From contig JAJDBF010000031.1 in the NCBI GenBank assembly GCA_029261535.1, positions 1 to 64,000 of the forward strand: a DNA stretch of 64,000 nt, in the 5' to 3' direction. The stretch comes from Nitrospinaceae bacterium. Its GTDB lineage: Bacteria > Nitrospinota > Nitrospinia > Nitrospinales > Nitrospinaceae. The translations under genes and the position numbers were made by a program. How positions within the stretch are numbered: the stretch's first letter is position 1; each line of letters opens with the position of its first letter. Of the stretch, positions 3,287 through 12,168 are shown piece after piece. Below the pieces are notes generated by a model. That model was not told the origin of the DNA. It did not search any database and saw only the letters and a list, made by a program, of their open reading frames with translations.

Positions 3287-3457
3287 CAGACAGAGCCCTG
3301 TGTGTTGGGATTTCTGCCTATATATAATATGAACCCGTCACAGGCACAAGCAAAATCAGAAAGGCTCTCGAAAGGCCCCGTTTTTCAGGAGAGGTGATTT
3401 ATCACAAACGCCATCGAAAAATTATCCGTTAACCAAGAACCATTTTATTCAGGCGAA

Positions 3458-4504
3458 TCAATTAGCGGTGCAGGTGACGCTGGTCTGGGATCCACCGCCA
3501 ACATTCAGGCTTCCTCCAGGATTCAATCCTGCGCAAATGGCTCCTATAAACGCAAGCGCAAGGTCCATCTGACAACTGCCACCGGCACTGCAAGCCAACG
3601 TCATGAGAAAAACCTGCCCGGGGGTCAGATTCAAATTAAACGTTTGATTGAGCACCAGTGTATTGACCGCCACACAGACGCTGATCGCATTGATCAAAAC
3701 CGATGCCGTGCTACCCCCACCACCAAAACAATTGACGCTACCCGATACCGCTGTGGTGCCCCCTGTGCCACCACCTGTGGCACCACCATCATCATCATCC
3801 ACATCCAACCCTCGGCGTACGGCATTCTGAATGGCGATGTCTTCCGTATTGGCGTTCTGCGCACGGCCAGCATATTCCTGGATAACTCCTGAACCGTCAT
3901 TCATCCCGAACCCATCGAGAAGTTTCTCCAATTCAGGGGTTTCACTCTTGCATGCTTCCTCAACGTATTGTTTTGCCTCTTCGACTAGTTTTTCCTGGGC
4001 CTCCACAGCTTTCTCGGCCTTAATCTTTTCCTGTACCGCTTTCCACCACAGGCCATTAGCCGATTCCCAGGCTTTTTGCGCCGCATCAAGTTGAGTCTTG
4101 GCCTTATCCGACACAGCTCTGGCTTTATTCGTAACGGCTTCGGCGGCTTTGTAGGCCTGCCACGCCTCAGTGTTAAAAAACTCACTTCCAATACCGGTAT
4201 TATTCCATGCCTTAAGCTCGGCAGTAAAAGCCTTGATTCCATCAAAATAGGCATCACTAAATGCGTCCAAGGCCTCCTGGCGGGCCGCTGCCGCCGTCTT
4301 CAGCGCGGCCTTTGCTTTAGCTTCCTTGGCATCAGCCTGTTGCAACGCGTCCTGCTTCGCTTTTAACTTGCCCTCAGCGGCGGCCAAAGCCTGCTTCGCA
4401 TCCGCGCATTCATCCGCCCAAACCGGGGCAACTGACACAAACAAGAACATGGCGATCAAACCAGCCACCCACCATTCCCCGGACACACTCGTGAAATTTC
4501 TCAT
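3458..4504 (-). CDS. Exported helical protein with cysteine-rich C-terminal domain, module 1 large protein
   Basis: Third and last large member of a triplicated two-gene module; I do not recognise the family. The ATG at 4504 makes an ATGA overlap with the small partner gene, the same arrangement as in the other two modules, so I prefer it to an in-frame start five codons upstream. A signal peptide ends near PVWA. The body (about residues 30-185) is rich in Ala, Lys, Glu and Gln and is probably a long helical or coiled-coil rod. A motif shared by all three copies follows (GRAQNANTEDIAI, then RRGLDVDDDD), then a Gly/Thr-rich linker and a C-terminal domain with six cysteines. That domain is clearly diverged from the near-identical ones of modules 2 and 3. 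Probable location is the periplasm or cell surface. Confidence 0.75.
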   Translation of the reverse strand: MRNFTSVSGEWWVAGLIAMFLFVSVAPVWADECADAKQALAAAEGKLKAKQDALQQADAKEAKAKAALKTAAAARQEALDAFSDAYFDGIKAFTAELKAWNNTGIGSEFFNTEAWQAYKAAEAVTNKARAVSDKAKTQLDAAQKAWESANGLWWKAVQEKIKAEKAVEAQEKLVEEAKQYVEEACKSETPELEKLLDGFGMNDGSGVIQEYAGRAQNANTEDIAIQNAVRRGLDVDDDDGGATGGGTGGTTAVSGSVNCFGGGGSTASVLINAISVCVAVNTLVLNQTFNLNLTPGQVFLMTLACSAGGSCQMDLALAFIGAICAGLNPGGSLNVGGGSQTSVTCTAN

Positions 4505-4932
4505 TGGAGACCTCCGCACCGCGCTTTAGCATCCGCAATGCGCTGATCGTACCTCTGGATCGCTTGCTTCAAATTGTCTCCTGCAGACAGCTCCCGGTCA
4601 TAGGCATTATTCATTGCCGCTCTGGCACGGTTTAATGGTTCATCCGACGGTGGCTTCCCACTTGAAATCAGAGTTTTCTGATAACCCTCCAGCACCCGCC
4701 CCTCCTCTTCCATCGCCCGTCTCGTTTTTTCCAGGGCCTGGCCAAGAACTTTAAACGCTTCTTTCACATCAGCCGAAGCGGGTTTTACCAGACCCACCGC
4801 TGATTTACATTCAGGCGAAGGCGTGGCCTCCGGACTGCCGCCAAATGCGGGTGCAGACCACAGCAGAATTAATAGAACGAGGAGTTTTGAACGGGTAAGA
4901 ATGCGGACAAAATTGAATGAAAATTTTGGCAT
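4501..4932 (-). CDS. Small exported helical protein, module 1 partner
   Basis: A 143-residue exported protein of unknown family. I start it at the ATG at 4932 because this matches the start and length of the module 2 copy (also 143 residues); a longer in-frame reading only extends into repeated non-coding DNA. The signal peptide ends at APAFGG. The mature part is helical and charged, with one cysteine at its beginning (PECKSAV) and one at its very end (ARCGGLQ). Both are conserved in all three copies and could join the ends of a helical hairpin by a disulfide. The last codons contain GGAGG, which serves as the ribosome-binding site of the downstream large gene, and the two genes overlap by ATGA. 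Confidence 0.75.
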   Translation of the reverse strand: MPKFSFNFVRILTRSKLLVLLILLWSAPAFGGSPEATPSPECKSAVGLVKPASADVKEAFKVLGQALEKTRRAMEEEGRVLEGYQKTLISSGKPPSDEPLNRARAAMNNAYDRELSAGDNLKQAIQRYDQRIADAKARCGGLQ

Positions 4933-4942
4933 ATCAACCAGA

Positions 4943-5403
4943 CCTTTAAGAGAAAGTAAGCTATCAGAATAAAAAATATCGCACAATCAGAAACCCCTTT
5001 GAGCGATTAGTTACAGGTGCAATTGACCGTACCCGGACCGTTGACCTGAATTCCCACCACGTTTGGTGTGCAGGTCACACCCGTCAAGCTGGCTACAAAC
5101 ATATGGCAGTTGGGACCCGCAGTCGCTCCCGGACAGGCGATCACAAAACTCACCGTGCTACCGGGGGTACAGGTCTTTGAAATGGCATTGCCGACAGAGG
5201 CAATGCCTCCGGTACTGCTACACACCTGCATGCCAGCAAAAGATACCGTCGCCTGCCCCGGACTACCAAAGCAATTGACACTGCCCGTGACAGCCGTTGA
5301 AGCCGCAGGAGTAGCACCACCACCACCGCCGCCACCATCACCGTCGTCATCCACATCCAGGCCACGTTTTCGTGCTTCCTCAATCGCGATATCTTCAGTA
5401 TTG
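4943..5403. repeat. Recently homogenised repeat block, copy A
   Basis: This block includes the 3' third of the module 2 large gene and the non-coding segment after it. It matches 6506-6957 very closely. Over roughly 310 bp of coding sequence from the stop codon I count about six mismatches, and the trailing non-coding part also matches, with a few changes. The two blocks differ in the length of the Gly/Asp linker. Similarity falls sharply upstream (towards the helical body), which points to a recent duplication or gene conversion limited to this end. Confidence 0.85.
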
Positions 5404-6071
5404 GCATCCTTCGCCCGTCCCGTGTATTCCTTGATGACATCCGATCCGCCCATGCCGAAAGAGTCCAGCAATACTTTCATTCCAGCAGAGGGTTTTTTAG
5501 GAACTTTCTTTTTGCAAGCCTCATTGACACGCCCTATTTTACGAGCCACATTGAGCCTCTGTCGGGAGACGAATTTTTCAGCCGAAAAAGCTTTAGTTTG
5601 GGCATTGAATAATGCCTTCCGGGCTTCGTCCAATTGCTTATCGGCAGCCGGAGTAGCCTTTGTTGCCGCATTATAATTCTCCCATGCCGCACGTTTTCTA
5701 TTCTTTGCGGCCTGATAAGCCTGCCAAGCGGCAGTATTAAAACGCTTGCTTAAACTATTAGTCTTTTTATAGGCACTAACCAACTCCCTACTCGCCTGCT
5801 CCACCATATCACTTGCCCTGTTTTTCCTGGAATACACTTTGCCGAAGGCAATCAGAATACTGTCATAACGCGCTTTGGCCTGTTTTGCCCTGGTTTTCGC
5901 CTTTTCTAGCGTCAATTGACGATCCTTCAGTTTTTCCCTGGCAATCCCCAGCGCGGTCTTCGCATCGGAGCATGCGTCCGCCCAAACCGGGCTGGCAACC
6001 AATAACATCAGCACGACCATCAGGCTGGCAATCCATCCTTTATGTGGCGCAAACGGGTTTCGGGGTATCAT
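5007..6071 (-). CDS. Exported helical protein with cysteine-rich C-terminal domain, module 2 large protein
   Basis: This 354-residue paralogue of the 3458-4504 and 6574-7671 products has a signal peptide ending at PVWADAC and a strongly basic and Ala-rich helical body (about 30-190). The shared motif GRAKDANTEDIAIEEARKRG is followed by an Asp/Gly linker (DVDDDGDGGGG) and a C-terminal domain of about 95 residues with eight cysteines, ending NCTCN. The domain is rich in Thr, Val, Gly and Ser and is probably beta-structured with disulfides. It starts with an ATGA overlap on its small partner. The body is only distantly similar to the other copies, but the C-terminal domain is nearly identical to that of module 3. 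Function unknown; an extracytoplasmic fibre, surface layer or matrix component is possible. Confidence 0.75.
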   Translation of the reverse strand: MIPRNPFAPHKGWIASLMVVLMLLVASPVWADACSDAKTALGIAREKLKDRQLTLEKAKTRAKQAKARYDSILIAFGKVYSRKNRASDMVEQASRELVSAYKKTNSLSKRFNTAAWQAYQAAKNRKRAAWENYNAATKATPAADKQLDEARKALFNAQTKAFSAEKFVSRQRLNVARKIGRVNEACKKKVPKKPSAGMKVLLDSFGMGGSDVIKEYTGRAKDANTEDIAIEEARKRGLDVDDDGDGGGGGGGATPAASTAVTGSVNCFGSPGQATVSFAGMQVCSSTGGIASVGNAISKTCTPGSTVSFVIACPGATAGPNCHMFVASLTGVTCTPNVVGIQVNGPGTVNCTCN

Positions 6072-6499
6072 TGGGAACCTCCACAGCGGCTCTCGGCCGT
6101 GTCAAGACGTTGATCAAATACCTGCATCACTTGCTCCAGGTGACCGTGCGCAGACCGCACCCGGCTTCGCGCCTGCTCCAGAGTTGCGTTCGCACGATTT
6201 AACTTTTCATCTGATGGCAACGCCTCACTTGAGCCCAGTGCTTTGCGATAGTTTTCTAAAGAACGGCCTCGCGCCGCCAGGGTATCTTTTGCTTCATCCA
6301 TCGCCTGCCCCAAAGAATTAAAAGCGGCTTCCACATCCGCGTTGGCTAGGTTGAGCAGACCATTGGCCGCCTTGCATTCAGGCAAAGGTGCGACCTCCGG
6401 ACTGCCGCCAAATGCGGGAACCGTCCACAACAAAATGAGTAGAATGAGAAGTTTTGAACGGGTAAAGCTACAGGCAAAATGAAATGACGACTTCAACAT
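6068..6499 (-). CDS. Small exported helical protein, module 2 partner
   Basis: A 143-residue paralogue of the other two small proteins. The signal peptide has the same core (TRSKLLILLILLW) as the module 1 copy and ends at VPAFGG. The mature protein keeps the N-terminal PECKAANG cysteine and the C-terminal SRCGGSQ cysteine, with an acidic and Ala-rich helical middle. It overlaps the next gene by ATGA, so translation of the pair is probably coupled and gives matched amounts. The conserved pairing in three copies suggests that the small and large proteins bind each other. Confidence 0.75.
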   Translation of the reverse strand: MLKSSFHFACSFTRSKLLILLILLWTVPAFGGSPEVAPLPECKAANGLLNLANADVEAAFNSLGQAMDEAKDTLAARGRSLENYRKALGSSEALPSDEKLNRANATLEQARSRVRSAHGHLEQVMQVFDQRLDTAESRCGGSQ

Positions 6500-6505
6500 A
6501 AAGAC

Positions 6506-6957
6506 AAAACCTTTAAGAGCAAGTAAGCTATCAGAATAAAAATTATCGAACGATCAGAAACCCCTTTGAGCGATTAGCTACAGGTGCAATTGACAGTGCC
6601 CGGACCGTTGACCTGAACTCCCACCACGTTTGGTGTGCAGGTCACACCCGTCAGGCTGGTTACAAACATATGGCAGTTGGGACCCGCAGTCGCTCCCGGA
6701 CAGGCGATCACAAAACTCACCGTGCTACCGGGGGTACAGGTCTTTGAAATGGCATTGCCGACAGAGGCAATGCCTCCGGTACTGCTACACACCTGCATAC
6801 CAGCAAAAGATACCGTCGCCTGCCCCGGACTACCAAAGCAATTGACACTGCCCGTGACAGCCGTTGAAGCCGCAGGAGTAGCACCACCACCGGTATTACC
6901 GCCTTTATCCAGTCCACGTTTTCGTGCTTCCTCAATCGCGATATCTTCTGTATTGGC
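6506..6957. repeat. Recently homogenised repeat block, copy B
   Basis: Counterpart of 4943-5403. It covers the 3' end of the module 3 large gene and the non-coding segment before the module 2 small gene. In both copies this spacer is 74 bp between the stop of the large gene and the start of the next small gene. Confidence 0.85.
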
Positions 6958-7671
6958 TTCGTTGGCGCGGCCTGTGAATAACTTGAGGATTGCCGACGAC
7001 GATCCACCTACTTTAAATTCCCCGCTACCAAGATCAAATGTCTTTTCATCATTCATCAAGGATCCAATGATTTTCCCAGCCTCAGATCCCTCTTCTTTGC
7101 AAGCATCAAAAGCACGTTGTCTGGCTGTAGAAACAGCGTCCCTTTGCCGATTGACCGCCTGCCTGGCTTGGTTAAATTTAGCGAGGGCCTCGTCATATGC
7201 CTCTTTAGGCTGTTTAGTGGCTTCCAGTGCAGCCTTTTCCGCTACTTGAGCTTTATCGTAAGCGGCTTTGGCATCTCGCTTGGCCTTAACACCCTTGCTT
7301 TCCCTAAGCTTTTTCAAATTGGCAGGATTAGCAGGCTCGCCTCTCCCTATCGGACCCCACAAATACTTTTCTGTCGCGACCGCAGCTGCTTCCCAAGAAT
7401 CAGTCCAAGCCTGATAGGCATCTTCCCTTGCCTGAAAAGCCTCTGTATAGGCTGCCCTAGCCTTTAAATACGGCCCCTTTGCTTTATTAGACTGTGCCAA
7501 TGCTTGCTTCTTCGCCTTTTCCAATACTTTCAAATCTGCCTCGGCAATAGCCAAAGCTCTTTTAGCATCTGAACATTCATCCGCCCACACCGGATTAGTA
7601 GCGACTAACATCAGCACTACCATTATGCTAGTCATCCACCATTTCCCTGACACGCACGTAAAATTTCTCAT
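6574..7671 (-). CDS. Exported helical protein with cysteine-rich C-terminal domain, module 3 large protein
   Basis: First large protein of the operon, 365 residues from the ATG at 7671, which overlaps the small partner gene by ATGA. The signal peptide ends at PVWADEC. The body is a long Ala/Lys/Glu-rich helix with an insertion around WGPIGRGEPANPANLKKL that is absent from the other copies. The shared GRANEANTEDIAIEEARKRG motif comes next; here the linker is short (DKGGNTGGG) without the Asp run. The eight-cysteine C-terminal domain differs from that of module 2 by only a few residues (for example FVTSL for FVASL). This combination of a variable body with a shared end is the clearest sign that the C-terminal domain does a common job, such as assembly or anchoring. 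Confidence 0.75.
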   Translation of the reverse strand: MRNFTCVSGKWWMTSIMVVLMLVATNPVWADECSDAKRALAIAEADLKVLEKAKKQALAQSNKAKGPYLKARAAYTEAFQAREDAYQAWTDSWEAAAVATEKYLWGPIGRGEPANPANLKKLRESKGVKAKRDAKAAYDKAQVAEKAALEATKQPKEAYDEALAKFNQARQAVNRQRDAVSTARQRAFDACKEEGSEAGKIIGSLMNDEKTFDLGSGEFKVGGSSSAILKLFTGRANEANTEDIAIEEARKRGLDKGGNTGGGATPAASTAVTGSVNCFGSPGQATVSFAGMQVCSSTGGIASVGNAISKTCTPGSTVSFVIACPGATAGPNCHMFVTSLTGVTCTPNVVGVQVNGPGTVNCTCS

Positions 7672-8087
7672 CGGAGACCTCCACACCGGGCGATGGCATC
7701 CGCAAATCGTTGGTCGTGCCCTTGTATCGCTTGTTTCAGGTGCTGGCTGGAAGATGCTTCACTATCATATGCACGCTTCATTGTCGCTCTCGCTTGGTTT
7801 AGCGGTTCATCCGACGGCGGCTTCCCACTGGAGTCCAAGGCTTGCTGGTAACTCTTAATCACATGGCTCTCATCTTCCAGTGCCCGTCCCGTTTTTTCAA
7901 TCGCCTGACCTAATGCTTTGAAAGCCTCATTCACATCAATCAAGGCCAGTTTCACCAAACTCACCGCTACCTTGCATTCAAGCGAGGGCGTGACCTCCGG
8001 ACTACCACCAAACGCGGGTGCAGACCATAACAGAAGCCATAGAATGAGACAGTTTTTAAAAAAAGAAATGCGACGATGTTTCGTCAT
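7668..8087 (-). CDS. Small exported helical protein, module 3 partner
   Basis: A 139-residue member of the small family. It has a signal peptide ending at APAFGG, the first cysteine in LECKVAV and the last in ARCGGLR. The middle is predicted helical and closely resembles module 1 (SSGKPPSDEPLN is shared). It begins 3 nt after the stop of the beta-barrel gene, which ties all three modules to that gene as one operon, and it overlaps the large gene by ATGA. Function unknown. Confidence 0.75.
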   Translation of the reverse strand: MTKHRRISFFKNCLILWLLLWSAPAFGGSPEVTPSLECKVAVSLVKLALIDVNEAFKALGQAIEKTGRALEDESHVIKSYQQALDSSGKPPSDEPLNQARATMKRAYDSEASSSQHLKQAIQGHDQRFADAIARCGGLR

Positions 8088-8090
8088 TTT

Positions 8091-9056
8091 TTAGAAACCG
8101 GCGGAAAGATTGAAAGTCGCCTGATTGCTGGTGTACTCACGAAACAGCGTGTTGGAGTCGTTGGTGGTCCGATTCCAGCCAACGGTTGCGGTGATCCCAC
8201 GTAACATTTCCCATTGATCCTTGATCACTTTGGAAACGCTGAGATTGAAGTTGTGCTGGTTGTCTTCACGAATACCGCCACCGGTCGCGGCGAAGGTATC
8301 GTAATCCAACAGGGAATATTTGTACTGGCCCTTGAAATGAAAATCGTAGGGCAAAATATAACGGCCTTTTATTTTGAAATCGTGTTTGGTCCGGTCGAAC
8401 CTGCCCACCGTGTCCTGGTCCGATCCCTGATAGCCGGTACCGAGGTAATTGGCCGTCCCCTCAAAGATATAAACGTAGTCGAAACCTCCGCCAAACTCAT
8501 CAGCATCGCGTGCCTGATTGCGGAAGTTATTTGAATTGGCGTAGAAAAAGCGGGCTTGCAACAGTCCCCATTTACCCAGGCTACGGGAGTAGGTTGGGCC
8601 GAAATAGTTCACACCGCTGAAGCTGTTGCCCCCGGCAACGCTCCAGATATAATAATATTGAAAGTCGAGAAAGGATTCCTTATTAATCTTGAAACGGGGA
8701 CGCAGTCCCCATGAATTGTTCAATGCATCGTATTGACCAAGGTCGGCGTATACGGTCTGGCTGATCTGGTACTCTCCTTTGACACTCCATTGATCGCTGA
8801 ACGAGTGAACATACTCACCGCCTCCGGACCAGTTGAACGCTGAGTCGGAATCATTGGGAGTCAGGTTAAGCAACCCCCCGCCAGAACTCTGCGCTACGTT
8901 GTCGTTGTGAAAGGTGCCTATGTTGAAATTGACCTTCCAGTTTTTTCCAGATTTCTGAACCAGCTGAGCCTGAGCCATTGCCGGACTGGAGATCAGGAGA
9001 GAGAGCAGAACGGCAGGCAAAAATCGAAAAATGGATGTGCTACTTATTAACATCAT
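8091..9056 (-). CDS. Outer-membrane beta-barrel protein heading the triplicated operon
   Basis: About 321 residues from the ATG at 9056 (a second ATG follows directly; a TTG six codons upstream is less likely). The signal peptide ends at SSPAMAQ. The rest alternates polar and hydrophobic residues with many aromatic strands (for example FDYVYIFEGTANY, FHFKGQYKYSLLDY) and ends in FNLSAGF, the terminal phenylalanine typical of BAM-inserted barrels. The strand pattern resembles the barrel half of surface-lipoprotein-assembly-modifier type proteins, but I see no TPR domain, so I name it only as a barrel. It is the first gene of the operon and may be the export or anchoring partner of the six secreted proteins downstream; that role is inference. 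Confidence 0.8.
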   Translation of the reverse strand: MMLISSTSIFRFLPAVLLSLLISSPAMAQAQLVQKSGKNWKVNFNIGTFHNDNVAQSSGGGLLNLTPNDSDSAFNWSGGGEYVHSFSDQWSVKGEYQISQTVYADLGQYDALNNSWGLRPRFKINKESFLDFQYYYIWSVAGGNSFSGVNYFGPTYSRSLGKWGLLQARFFYANSNNFRNQARDADEFGGGFDYVYIFEGTANYLGTGYQGSDQDTVGRFDRTKHDFKIKGRYILPYDFHFKGQYKYSLLDYDTFAATGGGIREDNQHNFNLSVSKVIKDQWEMLRGITATVGWNRTTNDSNTLFREYTSNQATFNLSAGF

Positions 9057-9279
9057 GAGGGGGGGGCTCCACAATCAGGATTTATACGCTTACGGTCAGA
9101 ATCCTAGCACCATCGCCTTCATTGTTCAACCGAACATTATCTGCGAAATGCGAGACCTTTTTCCCTTAAAAAGAAGCTATTTACATAACATTATGAAAAC
9201 GAAAGAAAAGGCGTGATTCTTCCCCCAGACAACTCAATTCAACAGGTGGAATTCAGGTCGAGGCAGATTACCAGCCCAA

Positions 9280-10041
9280 TCAGGCGGGAATGGAAACCTC
9301 GTACAATTGTTCAAGGATATTGACTTTTAATTCTTGCGGCGGACCATCGAAGATCAACTCGCCTTCGCGCAAGCCCAGAATGCGCCCGGCATATTCCCGC
9401 GCCAGTTCCGGCTGATGCAAATTGCAGATCACGGTCACCCCATCTTGCTGATTGATATCTCTTAAATGATCGAGGATGCCCTTTGCAGATGCCGGGTCGA
9501 GGCTGGCGACCGGTTCATCGGCCAGCAACAACTTTGGGCGTTGCATGAGAGCGCGTGCAATGCCCACACGCTGACGCTGTCCTCCGCTCAAACGGTCGGC
9601 GCGTTGCTCCCAGAAATCGACCAACCCCAGTCGCTTTAAATGAATAAACGCTGTCCGGCGGTCTTCCTCGCGAAACCGGTTACCCCAGGCCCAGAGGGCC
9701 GGCGTACCTCCCAGGCAACCGGACAGCACGTTGGTCAACACCGAGGCGCGGTCGATGAGATTGAACTCCTGAAAGATCATGCCGATGCGGTGCCGGATTT
9801 TTCGCAACCGCGCCGGGTCAGCACCGGTCACTTCTTCTCCATCAAGCCAGATGCGCCCGGTGGTGGGTTCGATCAATCGGTTGAGTGTCCGAAGAAGCGT
9901 TGACTTGCCCGCACCGCTGGGCCCGAGGGTGACAACAAATTGCCCGGTGGGGATGGCAAGAGACAATCCTTTTAAGGCCTGGGTGCCACCGTTGTCGAAG
10001 GTTTTCGACACATCTTCCAGCGCCACCTGAGCAGAGTTCAT
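9280..10041 (-). CDS. phnC: Phosphonate/phosphite ABC transporter ATPase, PhnC type
   Basis: Cytoplasmic ATPase of an importer for phosphonate, phosphite or a similar oxyanion. It has Walker A GPSGAGKST, a Q-loop in IFQEFNLIDR, the signature LSGGQRQRVGIARAL, Walker B LLLADEP and an H-loop in CNLHQPELA. The IFQEFNLIDRASVLTNVL segment is typical of PhnC. Length 253 is normal. It overlaps phnD by ATGA (10038-10041). A permease (PhnE) would be expected next, but the following gene is the unrelated beta-barrel operon, so the transporter is incomplete here. Confidence 0.92.
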   Translation of the reverse strand: MNSAQVALEDVSKTFDNGGTQALKGLSLAIPTGQFVVTLGPSGAGKSTLLRTLNRLIEPTTGRIWLDGEEVTGADPARLRKIRHRIGMIFQEFNLIDRASVLTNVLSGCLGGTPALWAWGNRFREEDRRTAFIHLKRLGLVDFWEQRADRLSGGQRQRVGIARALMQRPKLLLADEPVASLDPASAKGILDHLRDINQQDGVTVICNLHQPELAREYAGRILGLREGELIFDGPPQELKVNILEQLYEVSIPA

Positions 10042-11092: not shown

Positions 11093-11518
11093 TTACATCA
11101 AGTCTTCACGAATGTACTTGATAACGTCCCAAATCTGTTTATCTTTCAATTTCATCGGAGCCATGCCAGTTCCTTTAGAGCCGTTCTTGATGATCCAGAA
11201 CATTTGACCCGCAGAAACTTTTTTCATGGTTTTGCCACAAGAGAAGTTACGAGGAGCTGGCTTGAGGGCTTTGCCCAGTTTGCCTGCGCCATCACCCTTC
11301 ATGCCATGACACATCTGACAGGCCATCGGCTTGGCGGTCTTTTCATACAACTTTTTACCATTAGCCTTGTCAGCTTTGGCAGTAGCATCCTTTTTGGCGA
11401 TGCCAGAAGGAGCCGATTTGGTCGCACGCTTTTGAGGACATTTTCCACCAGCAAACGCAGTGTTGACCAGTAAGAGAGTTGCCATTGTAGCAACCAGTAA
11501 AATCATCGTTTTTTTCAT
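11093..11518 (-). CDS. Small exported c-type cytochrome
   Basis: A monohaem cytochrome c of 141 residues. I chose the ATG at 11518 because it follows an AAAGGA ribosome-binding site and begins directly with the signal peptide MKKTMILLVATMATLLLVN, cleaved near AFA. The haem site is CQMCHG, with GKLGKALKPAPRNFSC after it and a likely distal methionine in GTGMAPMKLKDKQI. The mature N-terminus is lysine- and alanine-rich, and two extra cysteines (GGKC, NFSC) could form a disulfide. It is a single-gene unit with its own terminator. Likely a periplasmic electron carrier. Confidence 0.9.
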   Translation of the reverse strand: MKKTMILLVATMATLLLVNTAFAGGKCPQKRATKSAPSGIAKKDATAKADKANGKKLYEKTAKPMACQMCHGMKGDGAGKLGKALKPAPRNFSCGKTMKKVSAGQMFWIIKNGSKGTGMAPMKLKDKQIWDVIKYIREDLM

Positions 11519-12168
11519 TGCCCAATCCTTTCTGTTAAAGAACACTAGGGAAAAATATTAGAGAGACGGTTAAGCTCGACACCGGAAAATTAAAAGGTTG
11601 TGTCCCCCCAGGCCCACAAAATCAAGCATTGACCTGAGGTTCAAAATGAGTGCAGATTATATTCTATATAGGTCGTCTGTCAACATAAAACTATCCCGAA
11701 ATACGACCCCGGACCCTACCCGACCAAGCCGGTCCCAGTCGATTTACTCCGTTGATTTATAGTCACTTCCATTGTTTTTTTCAGCGTTAAACTGATGGCT
11801 CCATTCAAGATTGCTTTGGAAAAACTGCCTCTAATCTTAAAAATCCCCCTACAGGCAGGAGAGCTTTGCGTAACCTTAGAATTTCTTTTTCCCCTCCTTA
11901 CATACAAAGGAGGGATACAGGGGAGGTTGTATTGATGACCCCTCCCGTACCCTCCGGACTATTCAACACAGCTTATTGAATAACCGCACGGTTCATTGAA
12001 AATCCCATTTTTGATTTTAGAATTATGCAAAGGTCTCTCAGAGCAAGAGCCAGGGTTCCCCCATTCAAGGTGTTCCCGCCGTCCGCCATTATGCTAGACT
12101 GATCCTCATTTTTTAACTGAACCTCACTGCATATCCAACGCGGTTGCATTATATGGAGTCATACTCGA
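11519..12168. other. Intergenic stretch of about 650 bp with dispersed repeats
   Basis: No convincing gene is seen. The part from about 11890 to 11960 holds a CT-rich/AG-rich inverted segment (CCCCTCCTTACATAC near AAAGGAGGGATACAGG), related to sequences at 42570-42670. The part near 12020 (TTATGCAAAGGTCTC) recurs at 29626. A 63-codon minus-strand frame overlaps the repeats and is not believed. Confidence 0.6.

Follow-up and report, generated by a model that had tools for sequence, protein, structure and literature searches.

The window analyzed here is a stretch of 64,000 nucleotides from a Nitrospinaceae bacterium (contig JAJDBF010000031.1 of assembly GCA_029261535.1), and from position 9056 down to position 3458 it carries seven minus-strand genes, a beta-barrel gene followed by three pairs that each encode a small and a large exported protein (Table 1). 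The barrel gene is separated from the first small gene by 3 bp, the two genes of every pair overlap by ATGA, and 74 bp lie between successive modules. The original prediction of a packed unit of seven genes was confirmed in all its coordinates, gaps, and overlaps, and the co-orientation and translational coupling of the genes support its reading as a single unit of exported proteins. Scans for promoters and terminators returned no signals above chance. The block is flanked by genes for glycogen phosphorylase, a STAS protein, and a phosphonate-type ABC transporter; beyond the phosphonate-type binding protein lies a small cytochrome c gene (window positions 11096-11521, Pfam Cytochrom_C), in an order that is kept in relatives.

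Table 1. Features of the seven-gene block, numbered along the window
Feature	Position	Strand	Remarks
SlipAM-family outer-membrane beta-barrel	8091..9056	-	321 aa, signal peptide, 14 predicted strands, C-terminal Phe, without TPR
Small exported protein, module 1	7668..8087	-	two Cys in mature part
Large exported protein, module 1	6574..7671	-	signal peptide, helical rod, ANTEDIAI segment, Cys-rich head
Small exported protein, module 2	6068..6499	-	
Large exported protein, module 2	5007..6071	-	member used for structure modeling
Small exported protein, module 3	4501..4932	-	
Large exported protein, module 3	3458..4504	-	
ANTEDIAI codons, module 1	6934..6957	-	
ANTEDIAI codons, module 2	5382..5405	-	
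ANTEDIAI codons, module 3	3830..3853	-	
Head-coding stretch, module 1	6574..6888	-	7/315 bases differ from module 2
Head-coding stretch, module 2	5007..5321	-	7/315 bases differ from module 1
Whole block, missing between STAS and ABC-transporter ATPase genes in three relatives	3357..9301	.	

The large proteins of the three modules are 37-58% identical to one another, and the architecture first described for them, consisting of a signal peptide, a helical rod, the motif ANTEDIAI, and a cysteine-rich end domain (the head), was borne out, with further cysteines at both rod ends, for example, C34 and C186 in large 2. Structure prediction for large 2 gave, with high confidence, a long hairpin of antiparallel helices, then a stretch of low confidence in which ANTEDIAI falls, and finally a head of about nine beta strands, with moderate confidence and an unsettled topology; the predicted hairpin would bring C34 and C186 close together, where they may form a disulfide. 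Searches of the PDB found no relative with the head profile and no meaningful match with the large profile, and a search of PHROGs gave coiled-coil noise alone. A head resembling that of the larges was also seen at the C-terminus of a 950-aa exported protein of PADGHTVNIQVSREE-type repeats in the relative G002 (L064:4317-7169).

The small proteins, 45-65% identical among themselves, are probably helical and periplasmic. The two cysteines attributed to each of them are present in the mature part, but not as a count for the whole protein, since the smalls of modules 1 and 2 carry a third one in the signal peptide. Likewise, the described RCGG ending holds for its cysteine, which is retained in the small protein of the related genome OFTM324 (G018), but not for its GG, which is lost in OFTM324 and in the window is spelled by GGAGG, the ribosome-binding site of the large gene that overlaps. 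By profile search the small family is present in two genomes, that of the window and OFTM324; weaker matches in other genomes (best 4.6e-4) were rejected as coiled-coil noise, and a possible homology between small and rod (30 aligned columns, probability 21.6) is not claimed.

Comparison of the modules shows that the copies are mosaics. In steps of 75 bases, modules 1 and 2 have 87-100% DNA identity, mostly 94-100%, across the heads and the gap downstream, and their rods are 41-52% identical as DNA and 28% as protein; near-identical heads joined to rods this dissimilar point to recombination or conversion of the head between long-separated rods. Tandem small/large pairs that have diversified might also be a series of toxin-immunity pairs, each small protein providing periplasmic immunity against the head of its large partner, and the top Foldseek match of the rod is indeed the coiled-coil hairpin of colicins E9 and E3. 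This match is, however, to a generic coiled coil and was rejected as evidence of a toxin, the small gene precedes the large, and neither Pfam nor NCBIfam yielded a toxin family. Covariation, for which four pairs were available, runs the wrong way as well: modules 1 and 2 combine heads that are 97% identical with smalls at 45%, and modules 1 and 3 combine the closest pair of smalls (68%) with heads at 35%. This pattern speaks against toxin-immunity pairs, and we regard them as highly improbable.

None of the proteins had been assigned to a named family. This stands for the small and large proteins, which match no Pfam or NCBIfam family above cut-off, but not for the barrel, which belongs to Pfam SlipAM (PF04575, DUF560), the barrel domain of the Slam, or type XI secretion system (T11SS), translocons, with 27.4 bits against a cut-off of 22 and over profile positions 1-286 of 288. 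SlipAM is also matched by 13 of 17 aligned Nitrospinota relatives of the barrel (best 3.2e-14), and no match was found in 14 control genomes outside the phylum. The AlphaFold2 model (mean pLDDT 81.6) predicts 14 strands, the first beginning at residue 40, and no TPR family of Pfam is matched. The window genome encodes exactly four SlipAM proteins, each next to an exported partner. The earlier suggestion of an outer-membrane barrel that is a likely exporter or anchor is supported.

The same barrel could instead be a channel for solutes or polysaccharides of the EpsL or porin kind, with the neighboring exported genes being accessory or unrelated. The NCBIfam EpsL model (TIGR03014) matches it with an E value of 2e-5, the best Foldseek matches of the barrel model are CymA, OmpG, and AlgE, that is, porins and polysaccharide channels (TM about 0.4-0.6), and PF04575 also includes polysaccharide exporters of the PgaA type, according to the T11SS survey (PMC8406197). 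The Foldseek matches settle the fold of the model and leave its function undecided; a PDB sequence search with the barrel profile gave no meaningful match. The EpsL score of 23.8 is, however, far under its cut-off of 275, polysaccharide genes are absent from the flanks of the block, and the cargo neighborhood described below is maintained across diverse loci; we consider a channel of this kind quite unlikely.

Among 77 Nitrospinota genomes, the full-length large family was found in the window genome and OFTM324 alone, congeners giving partial matches to the segment around ANTEDIAI or to the head; large 2 as the sole query for related loci gave no matches. OFTM324, a metagenome-assembled genome that is named Nitrospinaceae and belongs to the same taxonomic order as the window genome, in another family, repeats the order barrel, small, large in a single copy, its barrel being conserved (63% identical to that of the window) and its cargo changing fast (small and large each about 30%). 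The gene order sought in other Nitrospinota was thus found once, and the module is not confined to a single genome with frameshifted versions elsewhere. OFTM387 (G052) has a rod and segment without a head or a small gene, adjoining a barrel of the same clade. An alignment of 17 barrels was too diverse to yield patterns for the search for related loci, and six closer barrels recovered no loci beyond those of OFTM324, OFTM387, and Nitrospina sp. HKST-UBA01. In G002, G001, and G018, the STAS and ABC-transporter genes adjoin without the block, with one short ORF between them in G018, and its absence from this site in three relatives indicates a probable gain of the whole unit in the window lineage, loss in the other lineages being less likely.

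Exported proteins accompany related barrels in the phylum, in which a search with the barrel profile recovered many relatives. In all 17 barrel-only loci of Nitrospinota that were aligned, the window included, an exported protein is encoded within 82 bp of the barrel, compared with 33 of 72 control neighbors that are positive by the same crude signal-peptide test; because the cargos were chosen by reading neighborhoods and the test is loose, this count is suggestive and does not amount to a clean statistic. The class of the cargo tracks the barrel tree with the minimum possible number of changes, showing a lasting partnership that could, however, follow from joint inheritance. FecR-domain and/or CHASE2 adenylate/guanylate cyclase genes were seen near the barrel-cargo loci L058, L061, L065, L068, and L075 (in the order FecR, repeat protein, barrel, CHASE2 at L075), with L061 being the only one of the five at which both FecR and the CHASE2 cyclase were confirmed by Pfam. 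Proteins with Ala/Lys-rich C-terminal repeats (L033:11-667, L076:4289-4942, and L077:7376-8056), which adjoin TPR-bearing SlipAM proteins or more distant barrels, are perhaps another type of cargo.

Many of the barrel partners share a segment of about 40 residues that ends in N..EDIxI. Its sequence in the most frequent cargo class is IDDVxxGLDxDFxFGGKEEIKxxNxxxANEQNREDIKI, and ANTEDIAI, which is encoded at exactly three sites of the 3.45-Mb assembly, all of them inside the block, had been taken as a mark of the module and is better described as a local form of this segment, found in partners of related barrels. When about 1,660 ORFs were ranked with a segment profile built from one class, the top 20 included 6 of the 16 other cargos linked to barrels, two of the window larges at ranks 1 and 6 and four cargos from three other classes at ranks 3, 7, 12, and 14; column-shuffled profiles placed a mean of 0.6 and a maximum of 4 there (n = 60). 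This statistic is moderate, and with the reversed profile placing 3 in the top 20 and two cargos, the OFTM324 large and the OFTM387 rod, being missed, we hold a segment common to the cargo classes to be probable rather than proven.

The domains around the segment vary from none to a cysteine-rich beta head, a rod, or a class 3 lipase, the last found 24 bp behind a barrel in a protein with a segment-like stretch (L070:4969-6138, Pfam above cut-off). That the segment is the commonest cargo element, with attached domains that vary or are missing, and that classes F3, F5, and F6 (about 100-130 aa) hold little besides a signal peptide and the segment, would fit a barrel-and-plug complex equally well as an exporter; the segment would thread or close the barrel, and a stable structure spanning the envelope would result, with rods and heads as its periplasmic and outer portions, a picture close to the original interpretation. 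Against such a complex, several exported proteins go with one barrel, namely three larges here and up to four short cargos in C11, and the lipase looks like a payload. Two tandem segment-bearing exported proteins were also seen on contig C28 of the window genome (L010:6868-8124), with no barrel in 14 kb; cargos so far from any barrel are a misfit for one plug per barrel and would be anticipated where a single barrel handles more than one cargo. A plug is possible and, in our view, rather unlikely.

The explanation that we favor, at about even confidence, is that the block represents an acquired relative of the Slam/T11SS systems that lacks TPR, in which the barrel exports or anchors the large proteins through the segment and the small protein is their periplasmic partner. 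The SlipAM barrel would sit in the outer membrane, and the larges, as cargo, would cross the inner membrane by Sec, after which the barrel would recognize or retain them by the segment surrounding GRAxxANTEDIAI. Their final place may be the surface, the segment then separating the rod from the disulfide-rich beta head. Each small protein, produced immediately ahead of its large and translationally coupled to it, would contact that large as a dedicated periplasmic chaperone or a co-subunit of the rod, and three pairs behind a single barrel would provide three rod variants through divergence plus recombination of heads. More tentatively, and with rather more doubt than belief, we propose that Nitrospinota possess a separate class of outer-membrane transport or anchoring in which TPR-less SlipAM barrels read N..EDIxI regardless of the attached domain; the present block, as a multi-pair form, would build a variable array of disulfide-clamped rods on the surface. 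We found no description in the literature of these proteins, nor of surface proteins in relatives of marine nitrite oxidizers, for which the block would give a first handle, and it suggests an unstudied route for placing proteins at the cell surface.

The nearest known systems are those of Slam/T11SS, including Slam1 and Slam2 of N. meningitidis and NilB and HrpB of X. nematophila, with which the block shares a SlipAM barrel of 14 predicted strands and exported substrate genes adjoining the barrel gene; soluble substrates of the signal peptidase I type are also shared with the TXISS-1B branch. Slam is described as comprising a 14-stranded barrel and, in all homologues of that study, an N-terminal periplasmic TPR domain (PMC5449769), which the window barrel lacks. 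TPR-bearing SlipAM proteins do occur in Nitrospinota (e.g., L033:847-2334) and belong to the same barrel family, but they are 465-560 aa long and contain TPR repeats, unlike the window barrel; the one tested matches SlipAM and, weakly, TPR_Slam. Slam1 requires the periplasmic chaperone Skp (PMC9090332), to which the small protein, periplasmic, of similar size, and probably helical, offers an analogy only, as it has no sequence match to Skp, bears a cysteine pair, and has its own gene ahead of each cargo. Slam/T11SS systems have been surveyed in Proteobacteria, in contrast to the Nitrospinota host considered here, and how the translocon recognizes its cargo is an open question (PMC5449769, PMC8406197), for which a minimal TPR-less barrel and cargos with a short common segment would make a small system for direct tests. 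Their cargos carry a C-terminal eight-stranded barrel domain of the TbpB type, whereas no TbpB domain is found by Pfam in the window cargos, whose head is modeled at moderate confidence with about nine strands. A beta domain is missing altogether from some of the related cargos, and the element that cargos of the window type have in common is the short segment.
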